Positions 24,118-45,937 are shown, counted from the first letter of the stretch. The stretch is DNA of 64,000 nucleotides from Acidobacteriota bacterium (GCA_040754075.1 JBFMDH010000006.1:1-64000), one strand, 5' to 3'. Program-made: numbers and translations. The notes: a model not told the origin generated them from the letters alone.

Positions 24118-26046
24118 TCAACATTTTTTCAAACATTCGGCGATTTCCGCAGCCGATTGATAACGCTCTTTCGGCAATTTCTTCATCATTCCTTCAATAA
24201 TCGTCACCAACTGAGCAGGCACATCTTTGCGCAATTTCTTAATCGCCACGGGAGCGCGTTTGCTGATCGCTTCGATGGTTTGAAAATAGGTCTCGCCCTC
24301 GAACGGCAAATTGCCGGTGGTCATTTCGTACATCACCACACCGAGCGAAAAAATATCTGACAGATGAGTCACGTCGCCGCGCCCCGTTGCCTGTTCGGGC
24401 GACATATAACTGACGGTGCCAAGCAACACGCCCGATTCGGTAATGCGCGCCTTGATGCTGCGTTTGTCGGTCATCGGCGTCGGTTTTGCAAGACCAAAAT
24501 CCAGGACTTTTATTTTGCCGCGCGACGTAATCATGATATTTGCCGATTTGATGTCGCGATGCACTACCCCGCATTCATGCGCCTCGGCTAAAGCGTCGGC
24601 GATTTGTATGCCGATGTTGATAATCTCTTTGCAATCGAGATGCCTGCTTTGAATGCGCTCGTTCAGGGTCTCGCCTTCCACATACTCCATCACGATGTAC
24701 GGATTGCCCGCCGCTTCGCCGATTTCGTAAATCGTCGCAATGTTCATGTGATTGAGCCTTGATGCCATGCGCGCTTCGCGTAAAAATCGCTGTTTCATCG
24801 CCTCATCTTCGACGAACTTTGCTGCCAGCACTTTAATCGCCACCACGCGATGCAGTTCCGTGTCATAGGCTTCAAATATTTCACCCATTCCGCCCGCACC
24901 GAGCGAACGGCGAATATCAAACCGACCAATGTGCCCTTGCGCTTCGATGAGCGGCGGTGCCATCACTTTTTCGGTCTTGCCATCATGCACCGCCATCGCC
25001 GCCAAATCTGTGGGACGCAGTTCCATGGTAATCATTCGCGGGCGCGAAATTACCGAAGAGAATTTTGACGAAAACAGCCGCGCGCCGCGTTCGTCTTCGA
25101 TAAAATAACCGGCGCGTTTCAAATCTTCGTAGGTATGTTCCTGCTCTTTTTTAACTTCGTTGTCCTGTGCGAAACTGCGTATGACATTGCGTTGTTCGTC
25201 GGTCATCTTGTCCCAGATGAAGCGAAATTGGCCTTTCGCTTCATCAAGAAAAATCTCTTCGACCTCTTCACGATTCAGCTTGCCGTCATTTTCCGATAGA
25301 TAATCAAAATAGGTTGAGCAGGCGATTTGCAAAAAATAGGGAAAGTGTCCGGCGAGTTCCATAATCCGTCGCGCATAATATTCAAGCGGCAGACCGGCAT
25401 CTGCCGAAGGCTTTTTAATCAACTCCAATGCCTCTTTCTGCGTGAAGGCGCGCAAAAAAACATTGGTGAAAATATTAAAGAAAGGCGAGTCGGCAATCAG
25501 TTGCGTATGACAAAGCTCTTGCAGGTCGCGCGCCGAACTGGTCACATAAGCGACATCATAATTATTGGCAATCGACCGCAAAAATGAATAGAACTCCAGG
25601 TCAAAAGTTTTATTCGTGGTGATGACATCGAATTCATCAAAAAGCACAATCAGTTTGCGCTTCGCATCGCGAAACTTTTCCAGCAAGCTTCTGAGCGAAT
25701 CAAAACCCGGTTGCAATCTGGTAATCGCTTTTTCATTTACCGCTTTAGCAATCAAATCAAACAATTCTTTGAAAAATTCTTCGAGTGTGAGTTTGCGCTT
25801 CTGTTGCAGGTCGATAAAAACGAAAACATAGGATTCGGGATGGTCGAGAAAACGCGCGCGAATCTGCGGGTGATTGATATATTGCAGCAATGACGATTTA
25901 CCAATGCGCCGTTCGCCGACCACCGAAATGGATTGCGGTCGCGGCGCGCCGATGCGCGAAAAGATGCGCGATACTTCGCGAGTTCTGCCAAAGAACTGCG
26001 AAGGCTCCTTGATTGCCACACGATTTAAATAGGGATTGGCTGCCAT
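24118..26046 (-). CDS. Ser/Thr protein kinase with N-terminal STAND-like ATPase
   Basis: 642-residue soluble protein. Residues about 15-275 are a P-loop ATPase (FFGRTREV sensor box, Walker A GERRIGKSS, Walker B LIVLFDEFD, then HFPYFLQIACSTYFDYL), followed by a winged-helix-like linker to about 350. Residues about 365-640 are a complete Hanks-type kinase: G-loop LGAGGMGEIF, VAIK lysine, catalytic HRDIKSANI, DFG in LDFGLAKP, and GTVSYMSPEQ. No membrane span or PASTA repeats. It is the last gene of a minus-strand operon, 13 nt behind the sensor gene that carries a related ATPase. Activation of the kinase through ATPase oligomerisation is inferred. Confidence 0.9.
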   Translation of the reverse strand: MAANPYLNRVAIKEPSQFFGRTREVSRIFSRIGAPRPQSISVVGERRIGKSSLLQYINHPQIRARFLDHPESYVFVFIDLQQKRKLTLEEFFKELFDLIAKAVNEKAITRLQPGFDSLRSLLEKFRDAKRKLIVLFDEFDVITTNKTFDLEFYSFLRSIANNYDVAYVTSSARDLQELCHTQLIADSPFFNIFTNVFLRAFTQKEALELIKKPSADAGLPLEYYARRIMELAGHFPYFLQIACSTYFDYLSENDGKLNREEVEEIFLDEAKGQFRFIWDKMTDEQRNVIRSFAQDNEVKKEQEHTYEDLKRAGYFIEDERGARLFSSKFSSVISRPRMITMELRPTDLAAMAVHDGKTEKVMAPPLIEAQGHIGRFDIRRSLGAGGMGEIFEAYDTELHRVVAIKVLAAKFVEDEAMKQRFLREARMASRLNHMNIATIYEIGEAAGNPYIVMEYVEGETLNERIQSRHLDCKEIINIGIQIADALAEAHECGVVHRDIKSANIMITSRGKIKVLDFGLAKPTPMTDKRSIKARITESGVLLGTVSYMSPEQATGRGDVTHLSDIFSLGVVMYEMTTGNLPFEGETYFQTIEAISKRAPVAIKKLRKDVPAQLVTIIEGMMKKLPKERYQSAAEIAECLKKC

Positions 26047-26059
26047 GATGTTTTACGTC

Positions 26060-29000
26060 TCATAGTGTACGAACTTCTTTGACGACCTGCCAGATGGAAT
26101 GCGAACGGCGAATCCACAAACGAAACAAATCGATTCTCAGGCGAAATCCATCGCTTACGTTTTTATCCAGCAATTCGCGGCGAAACATCTCTTCGAGCGT
26201 CAGACGAATGGTCGTCTCGGATAAATTTACAGGATATTGATTCAGCTTCACCGACAGCCATAAATCGTAAGCGGTCGCAAACAAATCGCCATTCGCGAGG
26301 GTTTCGGAAAGCAAGGAAATCACCAACTTCTCATCATCCGAGAGCGCATCCCAGGTGTAAATCATTTGCGGCAACGGATTGTCGACAATCTCTTTGGTGA
26401 CGTTGTTCAAATCGGCAAGCGTAACCCAGTTCTGTTCGTGCTCATTCAGATAATCAACAATGTTTTGACAGGTAACCTGTGTATAAAAGGGTTGTCCGGC
26501 AGTCAACCGGTAAATCGCGTCGATGACGCCGCGACCATAGACGACTTTGCCCTCAATCGGTTCGGTAATCAATCGCAGAGTGTCATTGTTGGTTAAAAAT
26601 CCGACTTTGCGAAACAGCGAACTTTTCAACAAATCGTGCCAGTATTTTTTATCGCGCTCTTCGAGTCGCCGCGAACCCGTAAAGATAAACGCCAGTCGCT
26701 CTTTGTTATCCATCGTGCCCGCTAAAAAAGTGAAGAAATCGGGCGACAATTTTCCTTCATCGACTTTCGATTCCATCAACTCATATTCGTCTATCAGAAT
26801 CAATAAGGTGCGGTCGCCGATAGCGGCAATCACATCATCAAGAAAATCCGTGAACACCGGATAAGGGTTGCGATTGGCAAAACTCGGCGCGATTAAACGC
26901 ACCTCGATGCGCTGCAAGGCATCAACAATCAGCCGGGCGATGCGCGCAAAAAATTCGCCATCCGAAGTAATCACCATCTCCTGCATATCGACAAAAACCG
27001 GCACGAAACGTTTTCCCAAACGCCCATTCATCACCTGGTAGAGAATCGAACTTTTACCGACGCGCCGTTCGCCGCAAAATACAATCAACACGCCCTGCGA
27101 AGCGCCTTCGAGTTTGGTGCGCACATAACGGAAATCATCTTCACGTCCGAAAAACATTTTTTCCGAACGAATCGGATTGCCGACAATGTAAGGATTTTTT
27201 TCAATGGGCAAAAAGGTGCGCAACTCTTTCGGCAAAACATATTCGCGTTGCTGGCGCTGGCGAACCACGAAAAAGGCTCCTGTAGCCAATCCCAAGCCGG
27301 TGAGCATCAAAAAGTAAAACCACCAGCGTTTCCAAAACGGCGCTTGCACACGCACCGGTACGGTTGCCGCAGGAGCTTTTGCGCCATACAAATCGCGATT
27401 GAGCGCGATTACTTCAAAAGTATTCAACCCTTCATCGAGTTGAAAAACCGTTACTTCGCGTTCGCCGCTCGATTGCACCGGTAACAGTTCCCAACGGCTC
27501 TCTATGCCTCCGGGATTATTGCGATAGAGATATTGCAGTTGCCCGCTCATGCTGACGCCGGTCAAGCGAAAAGTGGCGCGTTGTTGTCCGCTCGGCAATT
27601 CATACGCGACGCCATTGAACACGGCTCCCGAATTGCCTTCAAATTTGAGCGCCGCCTGCGCCGATGGCGGCACGCGAATCGGCTTATGGCGAACTGCCCC
27701 TTTGTCTGTCGCAATCCAGATATAGCCTTCGCTATCTTCTGAAATGGCATTGATGCGATTGCCGGTGAGCGAATGTTCTTCGCCGGAATAGACCGTGGAG
27801 ATGATGTGACCTTGAATGGTGTGAAATTTTTTAACCTGACCGCTATCCGTGCCGACCCAGAGAAAATTGTCACGATCAACGAACAGCGTGCTCGCCGGTT
27901 CACCATCAAAGGCATCGAATGCCGCGACCCCTTGCTGTCTTTCGTTATAAGCCTGAACGCCCGAACGTGTGGCGATAAACAGCAGTCCGTTAAACCGGGT
28001 AATCCAGCGCGTGTCGTTATCAATCAACCCCCGCGAGGCATCGATCAACGCGGCGCTGTCGGTTTGCTGGTTATAAACCATTACGCCGCGCGAAGTCGCA
28101 AACCACAGCCGCCCGTCCGCGTCTTCAAAAATATGCCGCGTGTCATAGCCATCCAAATCTTTGAGCGGATGAAAGCCATCATCTCTGAAAATAGTCGCGC
28201 CTTTGGCGGTCGCAAATGCCAGAGCTGAACCGTCGCCGATTTTCGTCACCCAACGAACATTATTGGAAACCAGACCGTTGCCTTCACTGAACTGGGTCAG
28301 CGTCAATCCGTCGAGTTTGACTACTCCTTGTTCGGTGGCAAACCATGCTGCGCCGGTTTTATCAAAAGCCACGCAACGGGTGTTGGCTTTGACGCGAAAA
28401 CTTTCAAGCGGCGCAAAACGTTCGCCCTGCATTTGCGACACCCCGGTTGAAGTCAAACACCAGAGGTTGTTGGCATCTTTGGCTTTCGGTTCCTCGACAA
28501 TCAACCGCGCATCGTTATCCGGCAGTCCGCGACTGGTGGAAAAATTGACGAAGCTGTAGAGGTCGGCGTAAACCGTGCCGTTTTCCGTGGCAAACCACAC
28601 GTCGCCTTCGCGTCCGTTGTATAAAGCCGTAACCGTATCCTGTTCGAGAAAATTGATACGTTGCGATTCGCCTCGCGCCAGATCATAAATCACCGCGCCG
28701 CCATTTATGAGCGCAAACCACATACGCCCCGAACTGTCTTGATTGATGGCGAGCGCCTGCAAATTATTTATGAGTTGCGCCGGATGCAATGCCGCAGCAA
28801 TTTCATAACCGCCGTTATTATCCAGGGTCAGCAAGCCTTTTTGCGTCGCCAACCAAATGGTTCCGCTTTTATCTATAAAAACATCTTCTATGGTGCCGAC
28901 ATCAGCCATGCGCAGAGCCGGCGTGGGATTCGTCTGTGAGGTTGGCAAGGTTGAGGAAGTTGCGGATTGATTGCGCGGTGGATTGGATGGGGTTTGCGGG

Positions 29001-30253
29001 TTCGCTGACGTTAAGGGATTCGCCGGAGTCGTGATGATGTCGCGCTTGAAATCAAGCCGAATGACCTTGTCTTCATCAATGACGGCAATGCCTTTGGCAG
29101 TGGCAATCCAGAGTTTGCCGTTTTTATCTTCGGCAATGCCTTTCACGTCATTGGCGGGCAAGCCGCGCGTTTCATCGAACGTATCAAAATCTTTGCCATC
29201 AAATTTGAAGATGCCCGCAGCCGCCGTCACCCAAACCGTGCCGCGTGAATCGACAAACACTTTGCGCGTTTCAATGCCTTCCAACCAGCGGCGTTCATTG
29301 CCGCCTTCTCGGGTAATCCGCTTGATGCCACTGGTTGTCGCCATCCAGATATAAGCATTCTGATCTTCGGCAATCGACAACACATTATCGCCCGCAAGGT
29401 TTGCATAAGCCGAGCCTGCGCCGGTCGATGATTTGAAATCAATGCCGTTGAATTTAGCGATACCTCTATCGGTGCCAAACCACATCCAGCCATCGCTATC
29501 TTGATAAACTGCGTGAACGCTTTTTGACGGCAAGTTGGGAATGCTATAACGCGCAATCGCTTTGGCATTGATCGGGATAACCGGCGCGACCAGGAGTTGA
29601 ATCGGAAATTCCGTGGTGATGTCCGATGAAATATAAACTTCGTTGCGGTATTCATCATAGCCACGCAACACGGCTGTGAGCCGATAAGAGCCGGGCGCAA
29701 GTTTTCCAAAATAGGCATCGCCGTTTTTGTCGGTTACAGACCGCGCCGCAGGCTCTTCGGCAACGCCTTTTTCCTGGGTGTAGAGCGAAACGGTCACGTT
29801 GCCCAAAGGGTTGTTACCGGCATCAAACACTGCAACGTGCAGTGACGGCGCGGAAGCCAGTTTGATAGTAACGGGCGGGACAATTTCATCGGGTTTGGTA
29901 ATCGTTACTTGCGTTTGTTTTTGTCTGAGTCGCGCTGCCTGCACGGTGATGGTGTACTTTGCCGGGGCGAGATTTTTGAACTCAAATTTTCCGTCGCTCT
30001 GCGTCAACACCGAAGCCGAATAGACAGTCGAGGTGAGCGACACGGTGGCTTTATCAATCGGCACGCCTTTATCATCGAGCACCACGCCCGAAATCATCGC
30101 GGTGCCGGTTTGCGATGGTTGGGTCTGTGTAAGCGGAATTTGCAAAGCGCGGCTGTGGATTTCGATCAAACCAATTAATGAAATGACGAACGCCGACAAC
30201 AGGCTGATGCGAAAAATAATTGAATAATCTGAGTGGTTCTCGTTTCTGTTCAT
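26060..30253 (-). CDS. Transmembrane beta-propeller sensor with cytosolic STAND-like ATPase
   Basis: 1397 residues from the ATG at 30253 (a TTG nine codons earlier is possible). In order: membrane anchor (about 15-35); two carboxypeptidase-regulatory-like beta domains (about 55-220); about a dozen two-component-regulator-type propeller repeats (235-830) with the recurring signs WMWFGTDRGIAKF, WIATAKGI and WFATSRGV; a Y_Y_Y-like domain (870-960); a second membrane span (WWFYFLMLTGLGLATGAFFVV region); and a cytosolic P-loop ATPase (1020-1300; FFGRED, Walker A GERRVGKSS, Walker B LLILIDEYE, GQPFYTQVTCQN). The outer part resembles hybrid two-component sensors, but no histidine kinase or DNA-binding domain follows. 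A ligand in the periplasm probably controls the ATPase. Confidence 0.9.
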   Translation of the reverse strand: MNRNENHSDYSIIFRISLLSAFVISLIGLIEIHSRALQIPLTQTQPSQTGTAMISGVVLDDKGVPIDKATVSLTSTVYSASVLTQSDGKFEFKNLAPAKYTITVQAARLRQKQTQVTITKPDEIVPPVTIKLASAPSLHVAVFDAGNNPLGNVTVSLYTQEKGVAEEPAARSVTDKNGDAYFGKLAPGSYRLTAVLRGYDEYRNEVYISSDITTEFPIQLLVAPVIPINAKAIARYSIPNLPSKSVHAVYQDSDGWMWFGTDRGIAKFNGIDFKSSTGAGSAYANLAGDNVLSIAEDQNAYIWMATTSGIKRITREGGNERRWLEGIETRKVFVDSRGTVWVTAAAGIFKFDGKDFDTFDETRGLPANDVKGIAEDKNGKLWIATAKGIAVIDEDKVIRLDFKRDIITTPANPLTSANPQTPSNPPRNQSATSSTLPTSQTNPTPALRMADVGTIEDVFIDKSGTIWLATQKGLLTLDNNGGYEIAAALHPAQLINNLQALAINQDSSGRMWFALINGGAVIYDLARGESQRINFLEQDTVTALYNGREGDVWFATENGTVYADLYSFVNFSTSRGLPDNDARLIVEEPKAKDANNLWCLTSTGVSQMQGERFAPLESFRVKANTRCVAFDKTGAAWFATEQGVVKLDGLTLTQFSEGNGLVSNNVRWVTKIGDGSALAFATAKGATIFRDDGFHPLKDLDGYDTRHIFEDADGRLWFATSRGVMVYNQQTDSAALIDASRGLIDNDTRWITRFNGLLFIATRSGVQAYNERQQGVAAFDAFDGEPASTLFVDRDNFLWVGTDSGQVKKFHTIQGHIISTVYSGEEHSLTGNRINAISEDSEGYIWIATDKGAVRHKPIRVPPSAQAALKFEGNSGAVFNGVAYELPSGQQRATFRLTGVSMSGQLQYLYRNNPGGIESRWELLPVQSSGEREVTVFQLDEGLNTFEVIALNRDLYGAKAPAATVPVRVQAPFWKRWWFYFLMLTGLGLATGAFFVVRQRQQREYVLPKELRTFLPIEKNPYIVGNPIRSEKMFFGREDDFRYVRTKLEGASQGVLIVFCGERRVGKSSILYQVMNGRLGKRFVPVFVDMQEMVITSDGEFFARIARLIVDALQRIEVRLIAPSFANRNPYPVFTDFLDDVIAAIGDRTLLILIDEYELMESKVDEGKLSPDFFTFLAGTMDNKERLAFIFTGSRRLEERDKKYWHDLLKSSLFRKVGFLTNNDTLRLITEPIEGKVVYGRGVIDAIYRLTAGQPFYTQVTCQNIVDYLNEHEQNWVTLADLNNVTKEIVDNPLPQMIYTWDALSDDEKLVISLLSETLANGDLFATAYDLWLSVKLNQYPVNLSETTIRLTLEEMFRRELLDKNVSDGFRLRIDLFRLWIRRSHSIWQVVKEVRTL

Positions 30254-30314
30254 TAACAAGATGAAGTTAGCGCAAAGCAACTTCTCACGCTACTTTTAAT
30301 TTTAAACAATAGAC

Positions 30315-32243
30315 TCAATTGTTTTCGACATAGGGGCGCGATTGCACGATATACAATTGCCCTTTGGAATAGACCCATTCGATGTCCTGGTCGCGCCCGC
30401 CGAAAACGCGTTTGATTTGTAAAGCCACACGCGCCAGACGGCGAATCATTTCATCGGTGAGCACCGCGCGGTTCTCTTCAATCTTTAATTCTTTCACGCC
30501 GCCCTGTTCATCGAATTTGAGCATCGTATCTTCATCGGAACGTGTCAGCACTTTTGTAGAATTTGAAACCGGCGTATAAAGCACCTGCTCGGCAACCCGC
30601 TTGCCCTCGACGACTTTGATGCCAAGCCCGCGTTTGGCATTCACATAAACCGCGCCTTCGTTCTGTTTGTTAAACGGGTCTGTGGTAATCGCTACGCCTG
30701 CGCTTTCGGCATCAATGCCGATTTGCACAAGCACAGCAGGGTACACGCCCCAATGATTCATGCCGTAACTTTCACGCGCTTCATAAGCTTCATAATTCCA
30801 CACCGACGCCCAGACGGTTTTCACCGCTTCATACAATTGTTCATAAGTGCGCACGTTCGGAACCGTTGTATACAGCCCCGCGCCACTGAAATTCGGCAAG
30901 TCTTCGGCATTTGTCGAACTGCGAACGAAGAGTCCGGTTTTGAATAACCCTAAATCGAACGCTTTGCCTTCGAGCATCTTTTTCAAACCGACTTCAAGTT
31001 TCCCCTGTTGAATCCAGGAGCGAATTTCCGCGAGTCGTTTTTTGCGATAGACGGGGTCGTGAACGAAACGGTCTTCTTCAACCGCGTCCTGAATTTTGTC
31101 TTCGAGTTGATTCAACACCAGATGGGTTTTGTAATGGCTGAAAGGAATCGCAACCCCCGCAGGCACCACGATACCCGGATTGCGGGCGTTGATGAGTTCG
31201 CCGAGATTTGCGGATTTTGCGCCGAAGCGTTTCACATCCGCAGCGCGTTGTTCGCGCAGGTCTGTGAGTTTTTGATAGGTCAAATCGGCGCGCGGCGTGA
31301 TTAAATCGGCGCGTTTGATGAATTCGCGGTTGCGGGCTTCGACTTCGCGAATGTCTGCGGGTGTGAGTTTGTATTCATTCTCGCCGACTTCGAGGCGCAC
31401 ATATTTGCCTTCGAGTTGCTTGAAGAGTTTATCGGCGTTGGCGATGCGCGCATTCGGAATGCCCCAGGATTTCGCCAGCAGATTGGCATGTGAAAGCGGC
31501 GAAGCCGCTTCCGTCAGAATAATGCCCGAAAGCGGCGTGAGTTGAATCGGCGATTCTTTGAAGATGACGATTTGATTGCGGTCAATCACCGTGTCGGGTG
31601 TCAGGCGTTCGAGGATGCGCAGTTGCCCGATGCCCGAACCGAGATTGAATGGTTGATAGGTCTGGCTAGTTGCGAGGTCACTTGTGGTAATCGTCGCAAC
31701 AGGCATTGCAGCGGCGTTTAGCTCGCGAGCGATTTCCTCTTGCGCAAGTGAATTGGGTTTGAAATAGATTTCCGTATAAAAATTTTTCTTCAATGCCTCG
31801 GCGCATTCATTGAGTAATTCCTTGGTGAGTTTATCGCCTTCCCAGAATTCAAAAGTGAATTTATCAACGCCGGTTTGATAAGCGATTGTGCCTAAGAAAA
31901 ACCGGCGGTCGCTTTTGATGTAGTTGTTTTCGTAAAAAACTTTGCCGCGTTCAAGCGATAGATATTCGGCATTCACGAAAGTCTGATGAAAAGCATAGAG
32001 TTTGGAATTGACGAAATAGACTCGGTTTTTGGCGCGACGGTCAATGACAAACATCAAATGCGGCAAGGCATAAAAGCGTCCGCGATAGTAAGTGCGCGAC
32101 AATTTATCGAACTCCGCTCGCGTGTTGAGGCGCTCCAGCCAACGCGGTTGACCGTGAGTTTTTTGCGTCTGCGCAAATGACGTTTGTGCTATCAGCAAAA
32201 TTGCCACTATTGTCGCGCCAATGAAGCGTTGAGATTTTTTCAC
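30315..32243 (-). CDS. Exported phosphohistidine plus ATP-grasp dikinase-like protein
   Basis: 642 residues, GTG start behind GAGG, with a clear signal peptide (residues 1-25, ending TSFAQ). A unique N-terminal part (30-200) is followed by a swivelling phosphohistidine domain with H252 (ASPLSHANLLAKSWGIPNA) and a C-terminal PPDK/PEP-synthase-type ATP-grasp domain (about 335-640; VRSSTNAEDLPNFSGAG, VAITTDPFN, QDIEW, YIVQSRPY). The order His then ATP-grasp, without a PEP-binding domain, is that of glucan water dikinases rather than PEP synthase. Export is odd for an ATP-using enzyme. The stop lies 61 nt before the sensor gene, so the two may share a transcript. Confidence 0.82.
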   Translation of the reverse strand: MKKSQRFIGATIVAILLIAQTSFAQTQKTHGQPRWLERLNTRAEFDKLSRTYYRGRFYALPHLMFVIDRRAKNRVYFVNSKLYAFHQTFVNAEYLSLERGKVFYENNYIKSDRRFFLGTIAYQTGVDKFTFEFWEGDKLTKELLNECAEALKKNFYTEIYFKPNSLAQEEIARELNAAAMPVATITTSDLATSQTYQPFNLGSGIGQLRILERLTPDTVIDRNQIVIFKESPIQLTPLSGIILTEAASPLSHANLLAKSWGIPNARIANADKLFKQLEGKYVRLEVGENEYKLTPADIREVEARNREFIKRADLITPRADLTYQKLTDLREQRAADVKRFGAKSANLGELINARNPGIVVPAGVAIPFSHYKTHLVLNQLEDKIQDAVEEDRFVHDPVYRKKRLAEIRSWIQQGKLEVGLKKMLEGKAFDLGLFKTGLFVRSSTNAEDLPNFSGAGLYTTVPNVRTYEQLYEAVKTVWASVWNYEAYEARESYGMNHWGVYPAVLVQIGIDAESAGVAITTDPFNKQNEGAVYVNAKRGLGIKVVEGKRVAEQVLYTPVSNSTKVLTRSDEDTMLKFDEQGGVKELKIEENRAVLTDEMIRRLARVALQIKRVFGGRDQDIEWVYSKGQLYIVQSRPYVENN

Positions 32244-40693: not shown

Positions 40694-43600
40694 ATGAAAT
40701 TCAATCGCATCGTTGCCTTTCTTTTTGTCTCTACGTTTGGTTTTGTCCTGATTCAGACACTGGCGATTTTGCCAGGCAGCGCAAATTATCCATACGGGCT
40801 TGCGAAATTGCCGCAATCTACCAACCAAATCCCCAAGCCCAATGCAACGACCGCAACCTTCGTGGTGAACTCAACAGGCGACGGCGCGGATGCCAACACC
40901 GCAGATGGAGTTTGCAATGATGGCGCGGGCAATTGCACCTTGCGCGCGGCAATTCAGCAGGCTAATGCCACGGCTGGCGCAGACACCATTCAATTTGCCA
41001 TTGGCACCGGGGCACAGACGATTTCGCCTGTCTCAACTTTGCCGGCAATTACCGGCACGCTGACGATTGACGGCACAACTCAACCGGGGTTTGCCGGTAG
41101 TCCGATTATTGAAGTCAACGGCAATGGCATCGATCCAATTTTTGTTGCAAGCGGACTGTCAATCAATGCAACCGCCACCGGCAGCGTCGTCAAAGGGTTG
41201 GTCATCAACCGTTTTGCAGCTTATGGAATCGTCGTACAAGCGAGCAACTGTCGCGTTGAAGGCAATTTCATCGGCACCAATCTCGCGGGCACACTTGCCT
41301 CCCCCAACAGCGAATCGGGTGTGCTGTTAAGCGGCGCTTCCAACACGGTCATTGGCGGCACCACGACCGGAACCCGGAATGTCATTTCCGGGAATGGCAA
41401 CAACGGCGTGTTGTTATTCGGGGCGACGACTTCTGCCAATCGCATCGAAGGGAATTTCATCGGCATCAATGCTACGGGAAATGCCATAGTTTCCAATGGT
41501 GGCGATGGGGTTTTAATTAGTTTTGATGCCCACGACAATATCGTTGGCGGCACGACAAGCGGCGCGCGCAATATTATTTCCGGCAATGCCAATGGGGTTC
41601 ATATCGTAGCAGGCGCTTCTTCAACGCATCACAATCTTGTCCAGGGCAATTACATCGGCACCGACGTGACCGGCAGTTTCAGTTTGGGTAATCTATTCAG
41701 AGGCGTTGATATATTCGGCGGCAATAACAATACCATCGGCGGTACAGGCGCATCCCGCAATGTTATTTCCGGCAATAACCTTGAGGGTGTGATTATCAAT
41801 CAACCGGATGCCACGGCAAACAAAATTCAAGGCAATTATATCGGTTTAGCGGCAAACGGTGTGTCGCCGCTTGGCAACCGAGTCGCAGGCGCGCAAATCC
41901 TTAATGGCGCACATGACAATCTCATTGGCGGCACAGGTGCAGGTGAAGGCAACATCATCGCGTTTAACGGCACGGCAACCACGACCAGCGCAGGCATATT
42001 CGTCAATGGTCACACCGCTGCGGCTCAAACCACCAATAATGCGATTTTGAACAACACATTTTTTTCCAACCTCGGACTTGCCATAGACCTTTGCGGCAGC
42101 GGCTCCTGCGCCAACCCCGATGGCGTTACCGCAAACGATTCGGGTGATGGTGACGCAGGAGCCAATGATGTGCAGAACTTCCCAATCCTCACATCAGCAA
42201 ACACACTGGCGTCGGGAGACACCAATATTCAAGGTTCGCTCAACAGCACCGCCAGTACCAATTTTCGTCTGGAATTTTTCTACAGCAATTCGTGCGATGC
42301 ATCCGGCAATGGCGAAGGGCAAAATTATCTCGGCTCAACCAACGTGACGACCAATGCTGCTGGCAACGTCAATTTCAATGCGACGTTTGCCACCTTGATT
42401 CCTCCCGGCAGTTCCGTGACCGCTACCGCGACGCGCATCAATGGCGCGGTTTTTGAAAGCACGTCGGAATTTTCTCCCTGTATCACTTCTCTGGGGCTTG
42501 CTGATTTGGCAATCACCATAAACGACTCGCCCGACCCTGTGAATGTCGGTTCGCAACTTGCGTATTCCATCACCGTCACCAACAACGGACCGTCAACGGC
42601 AAGCAACGTTGTGGTGACGGATAATCTGCCATCGACGCTCGTATTCACGAATTGTCAATCAACCAACGGCGGCGTCTGTGGCGGCACAGGCAACAATCGC
42701 ACAGTGACGTTTGCCTCACTTGCGGCAAATACTTCGGCAACCATCACCATCAATGCGCTGGTGAATTGCGGCGTACTCAATAACACCTCCATCGGCAATA
42801 CAGCCTCAGTCAGTTCATCAACGCCGGATAATTCCACTGCCAATAATCTGGCAACGGCGACCACCCTTGCGCTAAATCCGGGATTTAATATTTCTCCGAC
42901 CAGCCAGGACTTCCCGCAAAACGGCGGGCAGGGAACGGTCGCAGTCACAGGACCAACGGGCTGTTCGTTCACGGCTGTGAGTAATGACGCCTGGATAACC
43001 ATTCTTTCAATTAATGCCAGCGCCGTAAATTTCAGCGTCGCGGTCAACAATACGGGAATTAATCGCACCGGCACAATGACCATTGGCGGCAATACCTTCA
43101 CAGTCAATCAATCGGGAACCCCTTGCACCTATACGTTGACGCCGACATCCGTCAACCTGAATAGCGAGGCGCAAAGCGGCAGCGTTGACCTCACCACCGG
43201 CAACGGCTGTTCGTGGAAAGTGGTCTCGCAGGATAGCTGGATAACCATCACTTCTGAGGCGGTGGGTTCAGGCAATGGCACTACGACTTTCACAGTTGAA
43301 GCCAATGCCACGGGAGCCACACGAATCGGAACCATCGAATTCATCACGCTTGGCTCTGCGAGTCCAACCGGCAGCGCGCCTGCACAAGTTGCGAATGAGG
43401 GGTTTACCATCACCCAGGCAGGCACGCCGACCGCCGCAAAATTAATCGCTTTTCAGGCGACGGCATATGATCAAGGAGTTTTACTGGACTGGCAATCCGG
43501 CGAAGAGATTAACAATCTCGGTTTCCACCTTTACCGCGAAACCGGCGGCAAATTGATTCGCATCACACCGGAAATCGTTGCCGGTTCGGCGCTCATTGTC

Positions 43601-45937
43601 GGAAGCGGAACGGCTTTACAGTCGGACAAAACTTATTTCTGGTGGGACAATTCAATGGCGGATTGCGGATTGCGAATGGTGAATTGTCAAGGTGTTGCTT
43701 ATTGGCTTGAAGACATTGACCTCAACGGCAAACGCACTTTGCACGGGCCAGTCATACCGAAAATCGTTGGCGGACAACCGCCCGCAAGAACCCGCGCAGA
43801 CCTGTTAAGTAAACTCGGAAAAGCCGAACCGCGAATTGTCACCTCAGTAATGACGGCTTCGGCAAATGCGCGCTCATCGGCTGTTGCGACAGCGACCGCC
43901 GATTGGAGTTTGCCGAATCAACCGGCAATGAAAATTGTCGTGCGCCAAGATGGCTGGTATCGCATTACGCAAACCGAACTGGCAAGCGCAGGTTTCAACG
44001 TCGCCATCAATCCGCGATTACTGCAACTCTACGTTGATGGCGAAGCGATACCGATGCGCGTCACGGGTGAACCAGACGGCGCTTTCAACCCGACCGATGC
44101 CGTTGAATTTTATGGCACGGCGCTCGATACCCCCGCGACCGACAAACGCATTTACTGGCTTACCACAGGCGCGCAACCGGGCAAGCGAATCTCTCAGATT
44201 GAAGCGCAAGCCAAACCGGGCGGCGCACAAAATTTCGCTTACACGGTTGAACGCAAAGACCGTGTGCTTTATTTCGCAGGACTTAAAAACGGCGAGCGTG
44301 AAAATTTCTTCGGCGTATTGATTTCACCTACGCCGGTTGAACAAACCCTCAATTTATTGCATCTCGATACGCAGGCAAAAGAGACGGCAACCATTGAAAT
44401 CACCTTGCAGGGCGTCACCCACTTGCCGCATCTGGTTCGCGTGGCACTCAACAATCAAACACTCGGAACCATCGGCTTTGAGGGTCAGGCGCAAGGCGTC
44501 GGTCGATTCCAGGTTCCCGTTTCGCTGCTCAAAGAAGGCAGCAATCAACTCTCACTCGTCGCCGTCAGTGGAGCAAGCGATATTTGTCTTACGGACGCGC
44601 TTCGCATTACTTATCCGCGCCTTTATCAAGCCGACAATAATCTTTTGACCTTTACGATTGACGGCGCGTCAACCAATCAAACCGTCAGAGGATTTAATAC
44701 CAATACGATTCATGTATTCGACATCACGAATGCAAACGCGCCGCAGGAATTTATCGGCAACATCGAACCAACCGCAGATGGGTACAGCGTCAGTATTCAG
44801 ACCGACGGTTTAACCAATCGCACAATGCTTGCGCTCGCTGCTGATAAAGTGAAAAAGCCAGCGGCGCTCATTGCCAATAAACCGTCAAGTTTGCGCGGCG
44901 CAAATCACAGTGCTGATTTAGTCATCATCACTCAAAACGCATTTGTTGACACCCTTGCGCCGCTTGCTGCCTTGCGTAAACAACAGGGCTACAGTGTTGA
45001 AATCATCACCGTTGAAGACATCTATGATGAATTCAGTTTCGGTCATAAAGAACCCCGCGCCATCAAAGATTTTCTCGCCGCAACCAAAGTGAATTGGAAG
45101 CGCGCGCCGCGTTTCGTTCTGTTGGTCGGTGATGCAAGCTATGACCGGCGCGATTATTTAGGATTAGGTGATTTCGATTTCGTGCCGACCGAACTCATTG
45201 ACACACAATTCATGGAGACCGCGAGCGACGATTGGTTGGTTGATTTCAATGATGACGGGTTGCCGGAAATGTTCGTCGGGCGGTTGCCTGTGCGCACGGC
45301 TGCGGAAGCGACAACGGTTGTCAACAAACTGGTCAACTACGATTCGACAACCGCCAAAGCCGTAAAAGAGAAACTGGCGTTGTTGGTTGCCGATAAAAAC
45401 GACGGCTACGATTTTGAATCGGCAAGCAGCAGTTTACGCGGTTTGTTGCCGGTTGATTTTTCCATTCAGGAAATTTTGCGTGGACGCACAACCGATAGCG
45501 CCGCAAAACAACAATTGCTTGCCGGGTTCAATCGCGGCGCGGCTGTTGTAAATTATCTCGGTCACGGTTCGACCAATTCCTGGCGCAATCTGTTCAACAA
45601 TGAAGATGTACAACAACTGACGAATCAAGCTAATCCGTCATTCGTTGTGGCAATGAGTTGTTTGATTGGCTATTTCCCGCATCCGAGTACAGAAAGCCTC
45701 GGCGAACGGTTGTTAAATTATGAACGCGGCGGCGCGATTGCGGTGTGGGCTTCGTCAAGCGCCACAGAACCCGCCGAACAGGCAAAGATGAATCGGGAAC
45801 TTTTCCACTTGCTATTCGGCTCAAAAACTAAATTGACTTTGGGCGAGGCGGTTGCCGGGGCGAAAGCCGCAACCCCAAATCGCGATATACGACGAACCTG
45901 GGTGTTGCTTGGCGACCCAAGCATGCGTTTGAAGTAA
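40694..45937 (+). CDS. Giant secreted CSLREA / beta-helix / DUF11 / BACON / C25 peptidase
   Basis: 1747 residues with a signal peptide. In order: CSLREA domain (about 52-100, VCNDGAGNCTLRAAIQQAN); right-handed beta-helix with recurring NVISGNGNNGV and EGNFIGTN units (100-480); DUF11 domain (about 600-720); two BACON domains (about 731-810 and 812-910); an FN3-like or linker module (914-1010); a galactose-binding-like middle; and a C-terminal gingipain-type C25 peptidase (about 1405-1747). Catalytic H1624 (YLGHGS) and C1656 (AMSCLIG) are 32 residues apart, as in gingipains. No sorting tail follows the peptidase. Its probable role is surface adhesion plus proteolysis. Confidence 0.9.
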   Translation: MKFNRIVAFLFVSTFGFVLIQTLAILPGSANYPYGLAKLPQSTNQIPKPNATTATFVVNSTGDGADANTADGVCNDGAGNCTLRAAIQQANATAGADTIQFAIGTGAQTISPVSTLPAITGTLTIDGTTQPGFAGSPIIEVNGNGIDPIFVASGLSINATATGSVVKGLVINRFAAYGIVVQASNCRVEGNFIGTNLAGTLASPNSESGVLLSGASNTVIGGTTTGTRNVISGNGNNGVLLFGATTSANRIEGNFIGINATGNAIVSNGGDGVLISFDAHDNIVGGTTSGARNIISGNANGVHIVAGASSTHHNLVQGNYIGTDVTGSFSLGNLFRGVDIFGGNNNTIGGTGASRNVISGNNLEGVIINQPDATANKIQGNYIGLAANGVSPLGNRVAGAQILNGAHDNLIGGTGAGEGNIIAFNGTATTTSAGIFVNGHTAAAQTTNNAILNNTFFSNLGLAIDLCGSGSCANPDGVTANDSGDGDAGANDVQNFPILTSANTLASGDTNIQGSLNSTASTNFRLEFFYSNSCDASGNGEGQNYLGSTNVTTNAAGNVNFNATFATLIPPGSSVTATATRINGAVFESTSEFSPCITSLGLADLAITINDSPDPVNVGSQLAYSITVTNNGPSTASNVVVTDNLPSTLVFTNCQSTNGGVCGGTGNNRTVTFASLAANTSATITINALVNCGVLNNTSIGNTASVSSSTPDNSTANNLATATTLALNPGFNISPTSQDFPQNGGQGTVAVTGPTGCSFTAVSNDAWITILSINASAVNFSVAVNNTGINRTGTMTIGGNTFTVNQSGTPCTYTLTPTSVNLNSEAQSGSVDLTTGNGCSWKVVSQDSWITITSEAVGSGNGTTTFTVEANATGATRIGTIEFITLGSASPTGSAPAQVANEGFTITQAGTPTAAKLIAFQATAYDQGVLLDWQSGEEINNLGFHLYRETGGKLIRITPEIVAGSALIVGSGTALQSDKTYFWWDNSMADCGLRMVNCQGVAYWLEDIDLNGKRTLHGPVIPKIVGGQPPARTRADLLSKLGKAEPRIVTSVMTASANARSSAVATATADWSLPNQPAMKIVVRQDGWYRITQTELASAGFNVAINPRLLQLYVDGEAIPMRVTGEPDGAFNPTDAVEFYGTALDTPATDKRIYWLTTGAQPGKRISQIEAQAKPGGAQNFAYTVERKDRVLYFAGLKNGERENFFGVLISPTPVEQTLNLLHLDTQAKETATIEITLQGVTHLPHLVRVALNNQTLGTIGFEGQAQGVGRFQVPVSLLKEGSNQLSLVAVSGASDICLTDALRITYPRLYQADNNLLTFTIDGASTNQTVRGFNTNTIHVFDITNANAPQEFIGNIEPTADGYSVSIQTDGLTNRTMLALAADKVKKPAALIANKPSSLRGANHSADLVIITQNAFVDTLAPLAALRKQQGYSVEIITVEDIYDEFSFGHKEPRAIKDFLAATKVNWKRAPRFVLLVGDASYDRRDYLGLGDFDFVPTELIDTQFMETASDDWLVDFNDDGLPEMFVGRLPVRTAAEATTVVNKLVNYDSTTAKAVKEKLALLVADKNDGYDFESASSSLRGLLPVDFSIQEILRGRTTDSAAKQQLLAGFNRGAAVVNYLGHGSTNSWRNLFNNEDVQQLTNQANPSFVVAMSCLIGYFPHPSTESLGERLLNYERGGAIAVWASSSATEPAEQAKMNRELFHLLFGSKTKLTLGEAVAGAKAATPNRDIRRTWVLLGDPSMRLK

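Follow-up and report, generated by a model that had tools for sequence, protein, structure and literature searches.

A two-gene locus in a 64,000-nt stretch of DNA from an Acidobacteriota bacterium (GCA_040754075.1, JBFMDH010000006.1:1–64000; this entire stretch is referred to as the window) encodes a membrane sensor protein, P, and a soluble Ser/Thr kinase, K, each joined to a STAND-type ATPase. We think it likely that P acts as receptor and K as effector in one relay, with the STAND ATPase pair as the coupling and P/K association activating the kinase. The observed base of this proposal comprises the architectures of the two proteins, their ATP sites and kinase motifs, their co-occurrence and linkage across genomes, the sister clades formed by their ATPases, and the swapping of sensors.

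Architecture of P and K

Inspection of the sequence alone had singled out this locus as two adjacent minus-strand genes 13 nt apart. The open reading frames agree (Table 1): K lies downstream of P on the same strand, with 13 nt from the stop of P to the start of K. The ATG at 30253 was taken as the start of P; a TTG upstream, at 30280, is also possible. Hydropathy predicts two spans in P, one N-terminal and one between the propeller and the ATPase. Pfam matches to P include CarboxypepD_reg (1.1e-24) and Reg_prop (4.2e-41), and the propeller resembles solved sensor domains of hybrid two-component systems (3v9f, 4a2l and 3ott; 3e-27 to 1.7e-17), consistent with the earlier description of an ATPase joined through a membrane span to a propeller of this type. 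The Y_Y_Y-like segment listed for ~aa 885–970 has no Pfam match.

Like the hybrid two-component sensors of Bacteroides, P combines a putatively periplasmic propeller with a membrane span that follows it. Unlike in these sensors, histidine kinase, receiver and AraC domains are absent from the Pfam matches of P and K, and the predicted cytoplasmic part of P is a STAND ATPase. The sequence-only reading had asserted the absence of histidine kinase, receiver and DNA-binding domains. The first two are indeed absent, and so is a dedicated regulator domain, but the last part of the statement needs qualification, as predicted models show a winged-helix-like module at the end of both ATPases. Such a module after the core is usual for STAND and ORC ATPases.

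In K, the ATPase and its winged-helix-like module are followed by a linker of low model confidence and the Ser/Thr kinase domain; hydropathy gives no membrane span. The kinase fold matches that of PknB (5u94; Z 35.3, root mean square deviation of 1.4 over 255 residues), and the domain possesses the VAIK lysine, HRD, DFG, activation loop and APE-like motif of PknB-type kinases. K405, HRD 496–498, DFG 516–518 and SPEQ 549–552 are invariant in the alignment of K orthologues, in line with the original description of an ATPase fused to a complete Ser/Thr kinase (Pkinase, 1.5e-51; catalytic motifs intact). While sharing fold and motifs with the PknB family, K lacks a membrane span or PASTA sensor of its own, and its regulation appears to have been handed over to the STAND module instead. 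PADLOC's PD-T4-6, considered as a family for the K kinase, was rejected, with only the generic kinase domain matching.

The four motif pairs previously noted as shared by the two ATPases were all found in the P and K translations (NPYIV/NPYLN, FFGRED/FFGRTR, GERRVGKSS/GERRIGKSS and PFYTQVTCQ/PYFLQIACS, respectively). Comparison of the P and K ATPase profiles returned a probability of 99.5% (E 4.8e-23; 25% identity over 280 columns), far above chance. K scores 239.5 bits against nSTAND2 (PF20702; cut-off 24); P matches ATPase_2 (1.3e-5) and, below threshold, nSTAND2 (20.1 bits). Together, they are the only nSTAND2 matches in the 7.58-Mb genome. A GRE-type box, Walker A and Walker B recur in P, K and the orthologues of each. 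P and K alike have an intact Walker A in all examined genomes of the main clade (see below), and Walker B reads DEY in P and DEF in K, in most genomes by a simple pattern and also in alignments. The ATP sites are thus intact, and both ATPases look active as far as their residues tell. Invariant arginines are present in the P and K alignments, as candidates for a trans-acting arginine finger.

The best fold matches of the P ATPase model (predicted local distance difference test score, pLDDT, of 88) were 2qen (Z 21.9), archaeal ORC2 (1w5t, Z 21.8) and 2fna (Z 19.9), with full-length alignment to 2qen and 1w5t. What P has in common with these archaeal STAND-type ATPases and ORC/Cdc6 proteins is the ATPase plus winged-helix fold; in contrast to P, they lack a sensor, a membrane span and a kinase partner. 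The NRC4 resistosome and CED-4 came next (Z ~16), a likeness to NLR-type inflammasomes and resistosomes at the level of the ATPase fold, as judged by fold comparison of a predicted model. Two other assignments were discarded: AAA_35 (PF14516) as the ATPase family gave zero matches in this genome and likewise in control genomes, and UPF0246, the sole and marginal match of the K ATPase in a sequence search of the PDB (E 0.01), was judged to be due to chance.

Table 1. Features of the P/K locus, with positions in the window.
Feature	Position	Strand	Basis
Gene K, soluble STAND-kinase, 642 aa	24118..26046	-	Open reading frame, Pfam, hydropathy
K-type nSTAND2 ATPase core, aa 1–280	25207..26046	-	PF20702 5.8e-71; alignment of K ATPases
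Walker A of K, GERRIGKS	25894..25917	-	Translation, alignment
K winged-helix-like module, aa 281–345	25012..25206	-	Secondary structure of predicted model
K PknB-type Ser/Thr kinase domain, aa 373–642, catalytic motifs intact	24121..24930	-	PF00069 1.5e-51; fold match to PknB
Gene P, membrane sensor-STAND protein, 1397 aa	26060..30253	-	Open reading frame, Pfam, hydropathy
P N-terminal hydrophobic segment (signal peptide or anchor), aa 12–30	30164..30220	-	Hydropathy
P two carboxypeptidase-regulatory-like Ig domains, ~aa 54–215	29609..30094	-	Pfam PF13620
P Reg_prop beta-propeller sensor, ~aa 235–880 (~650 residues)	27614..29551	-	Pfam PF07494; solved hybrid two-component sensors 3v9f, 4a2l, 3ott
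P putative Y_Y_Y-like Ig domain before membrane, ~aa 885–970	27344..27601	-	Sequence pattern; placement matching that in hybrid two-component sensors
P transmembrane helix, aa 979–997	27263..27319	-	Hydropathy
P-type STAND ATPase core, aa 1020–1310	26324..27196	-	Pfam; profiles; AlphaFold2 pLDDT 88; PDB 2qen Z 21.9, 1w5t Z 21.8
Walker A of P, GERRVGKS	27050..27073	-	Translation, alignment
P winged-helix-like C-terminal module	26063..26323	-	AlphaFold2 model: helices 303–355, hairpin 359–369

Joint retention and mirrored branching

Co-occurrence of the two architectures across genomes had been set beforehand as a test of the pairing. In total, 32 Acidobacteriota genomes contained both K and P and three more held only one of the genes; two of these three are 82–85% complete and in the third, P ends near a contig edge. 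Full-length K orthologues were detected in 21 of 98 relatives searched, 20 of which also had a P orthologue (the one without is an 85%-complete genome), and ten genomes chosen for their lack of K yielded no orthologue-level P match, with weaker, paralogue-level matches in two of them. An even sample of 347 Acidobacteriota genomes comprised 23 with both genes, one with K only (82% complete), one with P only (92% complete, 1130 contigs, P close to a contig end) and 322 with neither (Fisher p 1e-33, the genomes not being independent). Counted by family, both genes were present in ~11, K without P in one and P without K in none (p ~2e-12, using an approximate number of 64 empty families). All seven sampled genomes of the window's family carry the pair, in single copy, although over the phylum its distribution is patchy; named carriers include Blastocatellia, Chloracidobacterium and other Acidobacteriota. 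A scan of one genome collection, with patterns that reach close relatives only, placed the K clade exclusively in Acidobacteriota, bar one metagenome-assembled genome titled Actinomycetota (L135, JAAFHI010000036.1). The scaffold name of the latter says Acidobacteria and its contig is the same as in relative G048, so it is likely mislabelled.

P and K are encoded on the same strand and within ~2 kb of each other in 17 of the 32 genomes, with P first in 16, so the concern raised beforehand that the genes might not be neighbors in relatives did not materialize. Linked genes often overlap or are separated by a few bases, and overlaps occur in several lineages of the phylum. In two relatives, one or two genes sit between P and K, including one for a D12 DNA methylase. 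This D12-class DNA adenine methylase gene lies between P and K in G001 (L061:8026–8970), and a relative of it adjoins P in G003. At least ten genomes keep P and K far apart or on separate contigs, including two-contig genomes of genus g16. Neighborhood is thus common but not universal, and joint retention is independent of it, because unlinked genomes still hold both genes.

An unrooted tree of the ATPase modules of 34 pairs (n = 68), with domains cut at Walker A, separated all K types from all P types by a single branch (94/89 support). Hence, K and P form sister clades and do not belong to unrelated ones, the other outcome that had been named in advance as speaking against the pairing. The K and P subtrees have 19 of 31 splits in common, compared to at most three in shuffles (n = 1000), and where a genome has several pairs, each of them occupies corresponding clades in the two halves. 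The simplest reading of this topology would be a single duplication that preceded all pairs, short of proof because the root of the tree was not inferred. A correlation between K and P distances (r 0.97) was dropped as evidence, since distances of the P sensor and ATPase were nearly as well correlated (0.93).

That the P and K ATPases are paralogues would also be expected if their adjacency were a relic of tandem duplication devoid of joint function. We give this idea hardly any credence: one split puts all sampled pairs in the same two clades, yet the genes are kept together even when chromosomally separated, and joint presence or absence is nearly perfect over the 347 genomes.

Exchange of sensors and effectors

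K remains a soluble kinase throughout the main clade, whereas the sensor of P varies. Blastocatellia have the propeller; three genomes (G112, G137, G149) have a Peripla_BP_6 domain plus a span; and five (G336, G105, G315, G392, G253) have 7–10 spans, a region without a Pfam match in the three that were run (G336, G105, G315). In G161, PEGA domains lie C-terminal to the ATPase and span of P, and the kinase is at the N-terminus of K. G161 has thus retained the pair despite an inverted domain order in P as well as in K, a combination difficult to account for if the ATPases did not work together.

More distant adjacent pairs retain one P-type and one K-type ATPase with other modules attached, e.g. 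a nucleotidyl-cyclase-like domain fused to K next to a membrane P (L092), or tetratricopeptide repeats (TPR) on P with a kinase on K (L158, L161, L162). In others, P carries HEAT (L159), or K carries HEPN (L095) or a DNA-binding domain of the Trans_reg_C type (L165). Those in L182–L184 and on an Acinetobacter plasmid carry N6-methylase and specificity domains on P, with a type I restriction-like gene adjoining on the plasmid. Such pairs link the window pair to conflict systems and suggest that paired ATPases serve as a coupling device of general use.

Several of these loci are worth recording in their own right. In L092 (5821–9086), the gene for the class III nucleotidyl-cyclase-like domain and K-type ATPase overlaps the P-type membrane gene by 4 nt and shows weak matches to Pycsar cyclases. 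On the Acinetobacter ursingii plasmid NZ_MH220285.1 (L189:2062–9827), as in L182, L183 and L184, a type I R-like gene is followed by a methylase-specificity-P-type ATPase gene and then a K-type ATPase gene. PADLOC gives good matches for the methylase, specificity and nuclease parts only, and this operon is probably an ATPase-gated restriction system. Plasmids of Euzebya (L188:2263–10808) and Brasilonema (L190:1300–11559) each encode a very large protein (~1950 and ~2290 aa) that has a remote K-like ATPase, and another large gene comes after it.

The same data bear on whether P and K might co-evolve without contact, through a common third component or with P driving another output while K homo-oligomerizes. 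Separation of the genes in about half of the genomes would fit such an arrangement, and the P–K interface is a presumed one. Nevertheless, this alternative appears rather improbable, given that the K and P ATPases of each genome are paralogues from two sister clades with mirrored splits, that the genes overlap in several lineages of the phylum, and that distant pairs with other effectors keep both ATPase types side by side.

In the window, K and P are flanked by FeoB-like, PPDK_N-like and aldehyde-dehydrogenase-like open reading frames. The gene for the PPDK_N phosphotransferase-like protein (30315–32243) immediately precedes P on its strand and is probably outside the system, because the linkage was seen in one close relative only (G001). 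Further away (40694–45937) lies the gene for a 1747-aa protein with gingipain-type Peptidase_C25, DUF11 and BACON domains.

A proposed relay and its precedents

In the proposed relay, the propeller of P would respond, as the propellers of hybrid two-component sensors do, to something beyond the inner membrane, with the STAND ATPase of P on the cytoplasmic side and K as a soluble Ser/Thr kinase whose activity would be set by its paralogous STAND ATPase. A ligand on the sensor would change the nucleotide or assembly state of the P ATPase, which would then join the K ATPase. K copies brought together in this way would trans-autophosphorylate the kinase activation loop, and activated K would go on to phosphorylate its substrates. 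STAND and ORC-type ATPases are known to assemble, and proximity activates PknB-type kinases, which makes hetero-assembly with clustering of the kinase the natural reading. What we infer here are the membrane topology, the direct contact between the ATPases, the direction of the signal, clustering as the mode of activation, and phosphorylation as the output. The suggestion, made from the sequence alone, that a sensor ATPase pairs with a kinase ATPase is well supported in functional terms by co-occurrence, conserved adjacency, sister clades with mirrored branching, and sensor swapping; hetero-oligomerization of the two stays predicted.

A number of points weigh against this proposal. Contact between the P and K ATPases is a prediction, and their winged-helix modules could bind DNA or other partners. 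The presumed outward direction of the sensor is derived from hydropathy and the known location of homologous domains, and the mirrored branching of K and P is in part species history. Moreover, related distant pairs with restriction-like or HEPN modules may leave room for a role in defense.

Taken further, the last point would make the pair a membrane-tethered, NLR-like defense system, in which the propeller senses envelope damage or an attacker, the STAND pair assembles, and the kinase, as a toxic effector, brings the cell to a halt. The nSTAND2 family was described from predicted counter-invader operons (PMC8195603); distant relatives of the pair carry N6-methylase and specificity domains, HEPN or a cyclase; and the kinase domain of K matches defense kinase models. 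Still, we regard this scenario as unlikely: the kinase match is that of a generic PknB, the genes flanking K and P form no defense island, the pair is single-copy and present in seven of seven sampled genomes of the family, unlike a mobile defense system, and the sensors of P are classical ligand-binding modules.

The nearest precedent for a receptor–kinase relay of the kind we favor comes from Kaur et al. 2021 (eLife 10:e70394, PMC8195603, section 15, Fig. 6C), who predicted a two-gene nSTAND2 counter-invader operon and likewise a hetero-multimer for it. In both cases, two adjacent genes with an nSTAND2-type ATPase in each form a constant core, with a variable effector on one. As described in that section, one ATPase of the operon is eroded, whereas Walker A is intact in both P and K; effectors are mostly GT4 or HEPN, as opposed to a Ser/Thr kinase here; the operon is called mobile, whereas the P/K pair is present in all seven sampled genomes of the window's family, with a patchy distribution over the phylum; and no transmembrane sensor is mentioned in the section, whereas P would be a transmembrane receptor. 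The label of a possible new signaling system that the sequence-only reading had attached to the locus therefore needs qualification with regard to the two-gene nSTAND2 operon, already predicted there, but the architecture does differ. A functional analogy, not membership, links the pair to the GlnH–GlnX–PknG relay of Corynebacterium (PMC9769921), in which control of a soluble Ser/Thr kinase lies with a membrane protein and a periplasmic binding protein; the description of that relay features no STAND ATPases, and its coupling protein is unrelated.

We found no description of the P/K pair in open-access papers, and the pair probably constitutes a type of bacterial receptor-kinase relay not described so far. 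We are evenly divided on whether it represents a modular transmembrane signaling class in Acidobacteriota, apart from two-component systems, in which interchangeable sensors (propeller, periplasmic-binding protein, PEGA or multi-span) all act through one conserved heteromeric STAND pair to switch a soluble Ser/Thr kinase, serving environmental sensing rather than immunity. To our knowledge, the input of outside signals to soluble bacterial Ser/Thr kinases is mostly unknown. Here, the sequence is enough to name receptor, ATPase coupler and kinase. As in histidine kinases, lineages have swapped the sensor and kept the rest. The pair is small and testable, with two candidate types of ligand-binding sensor. 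If the proposal is true, STAND ATPases, known mainly from immunity, would also act as the coupling element of membrane receptors.

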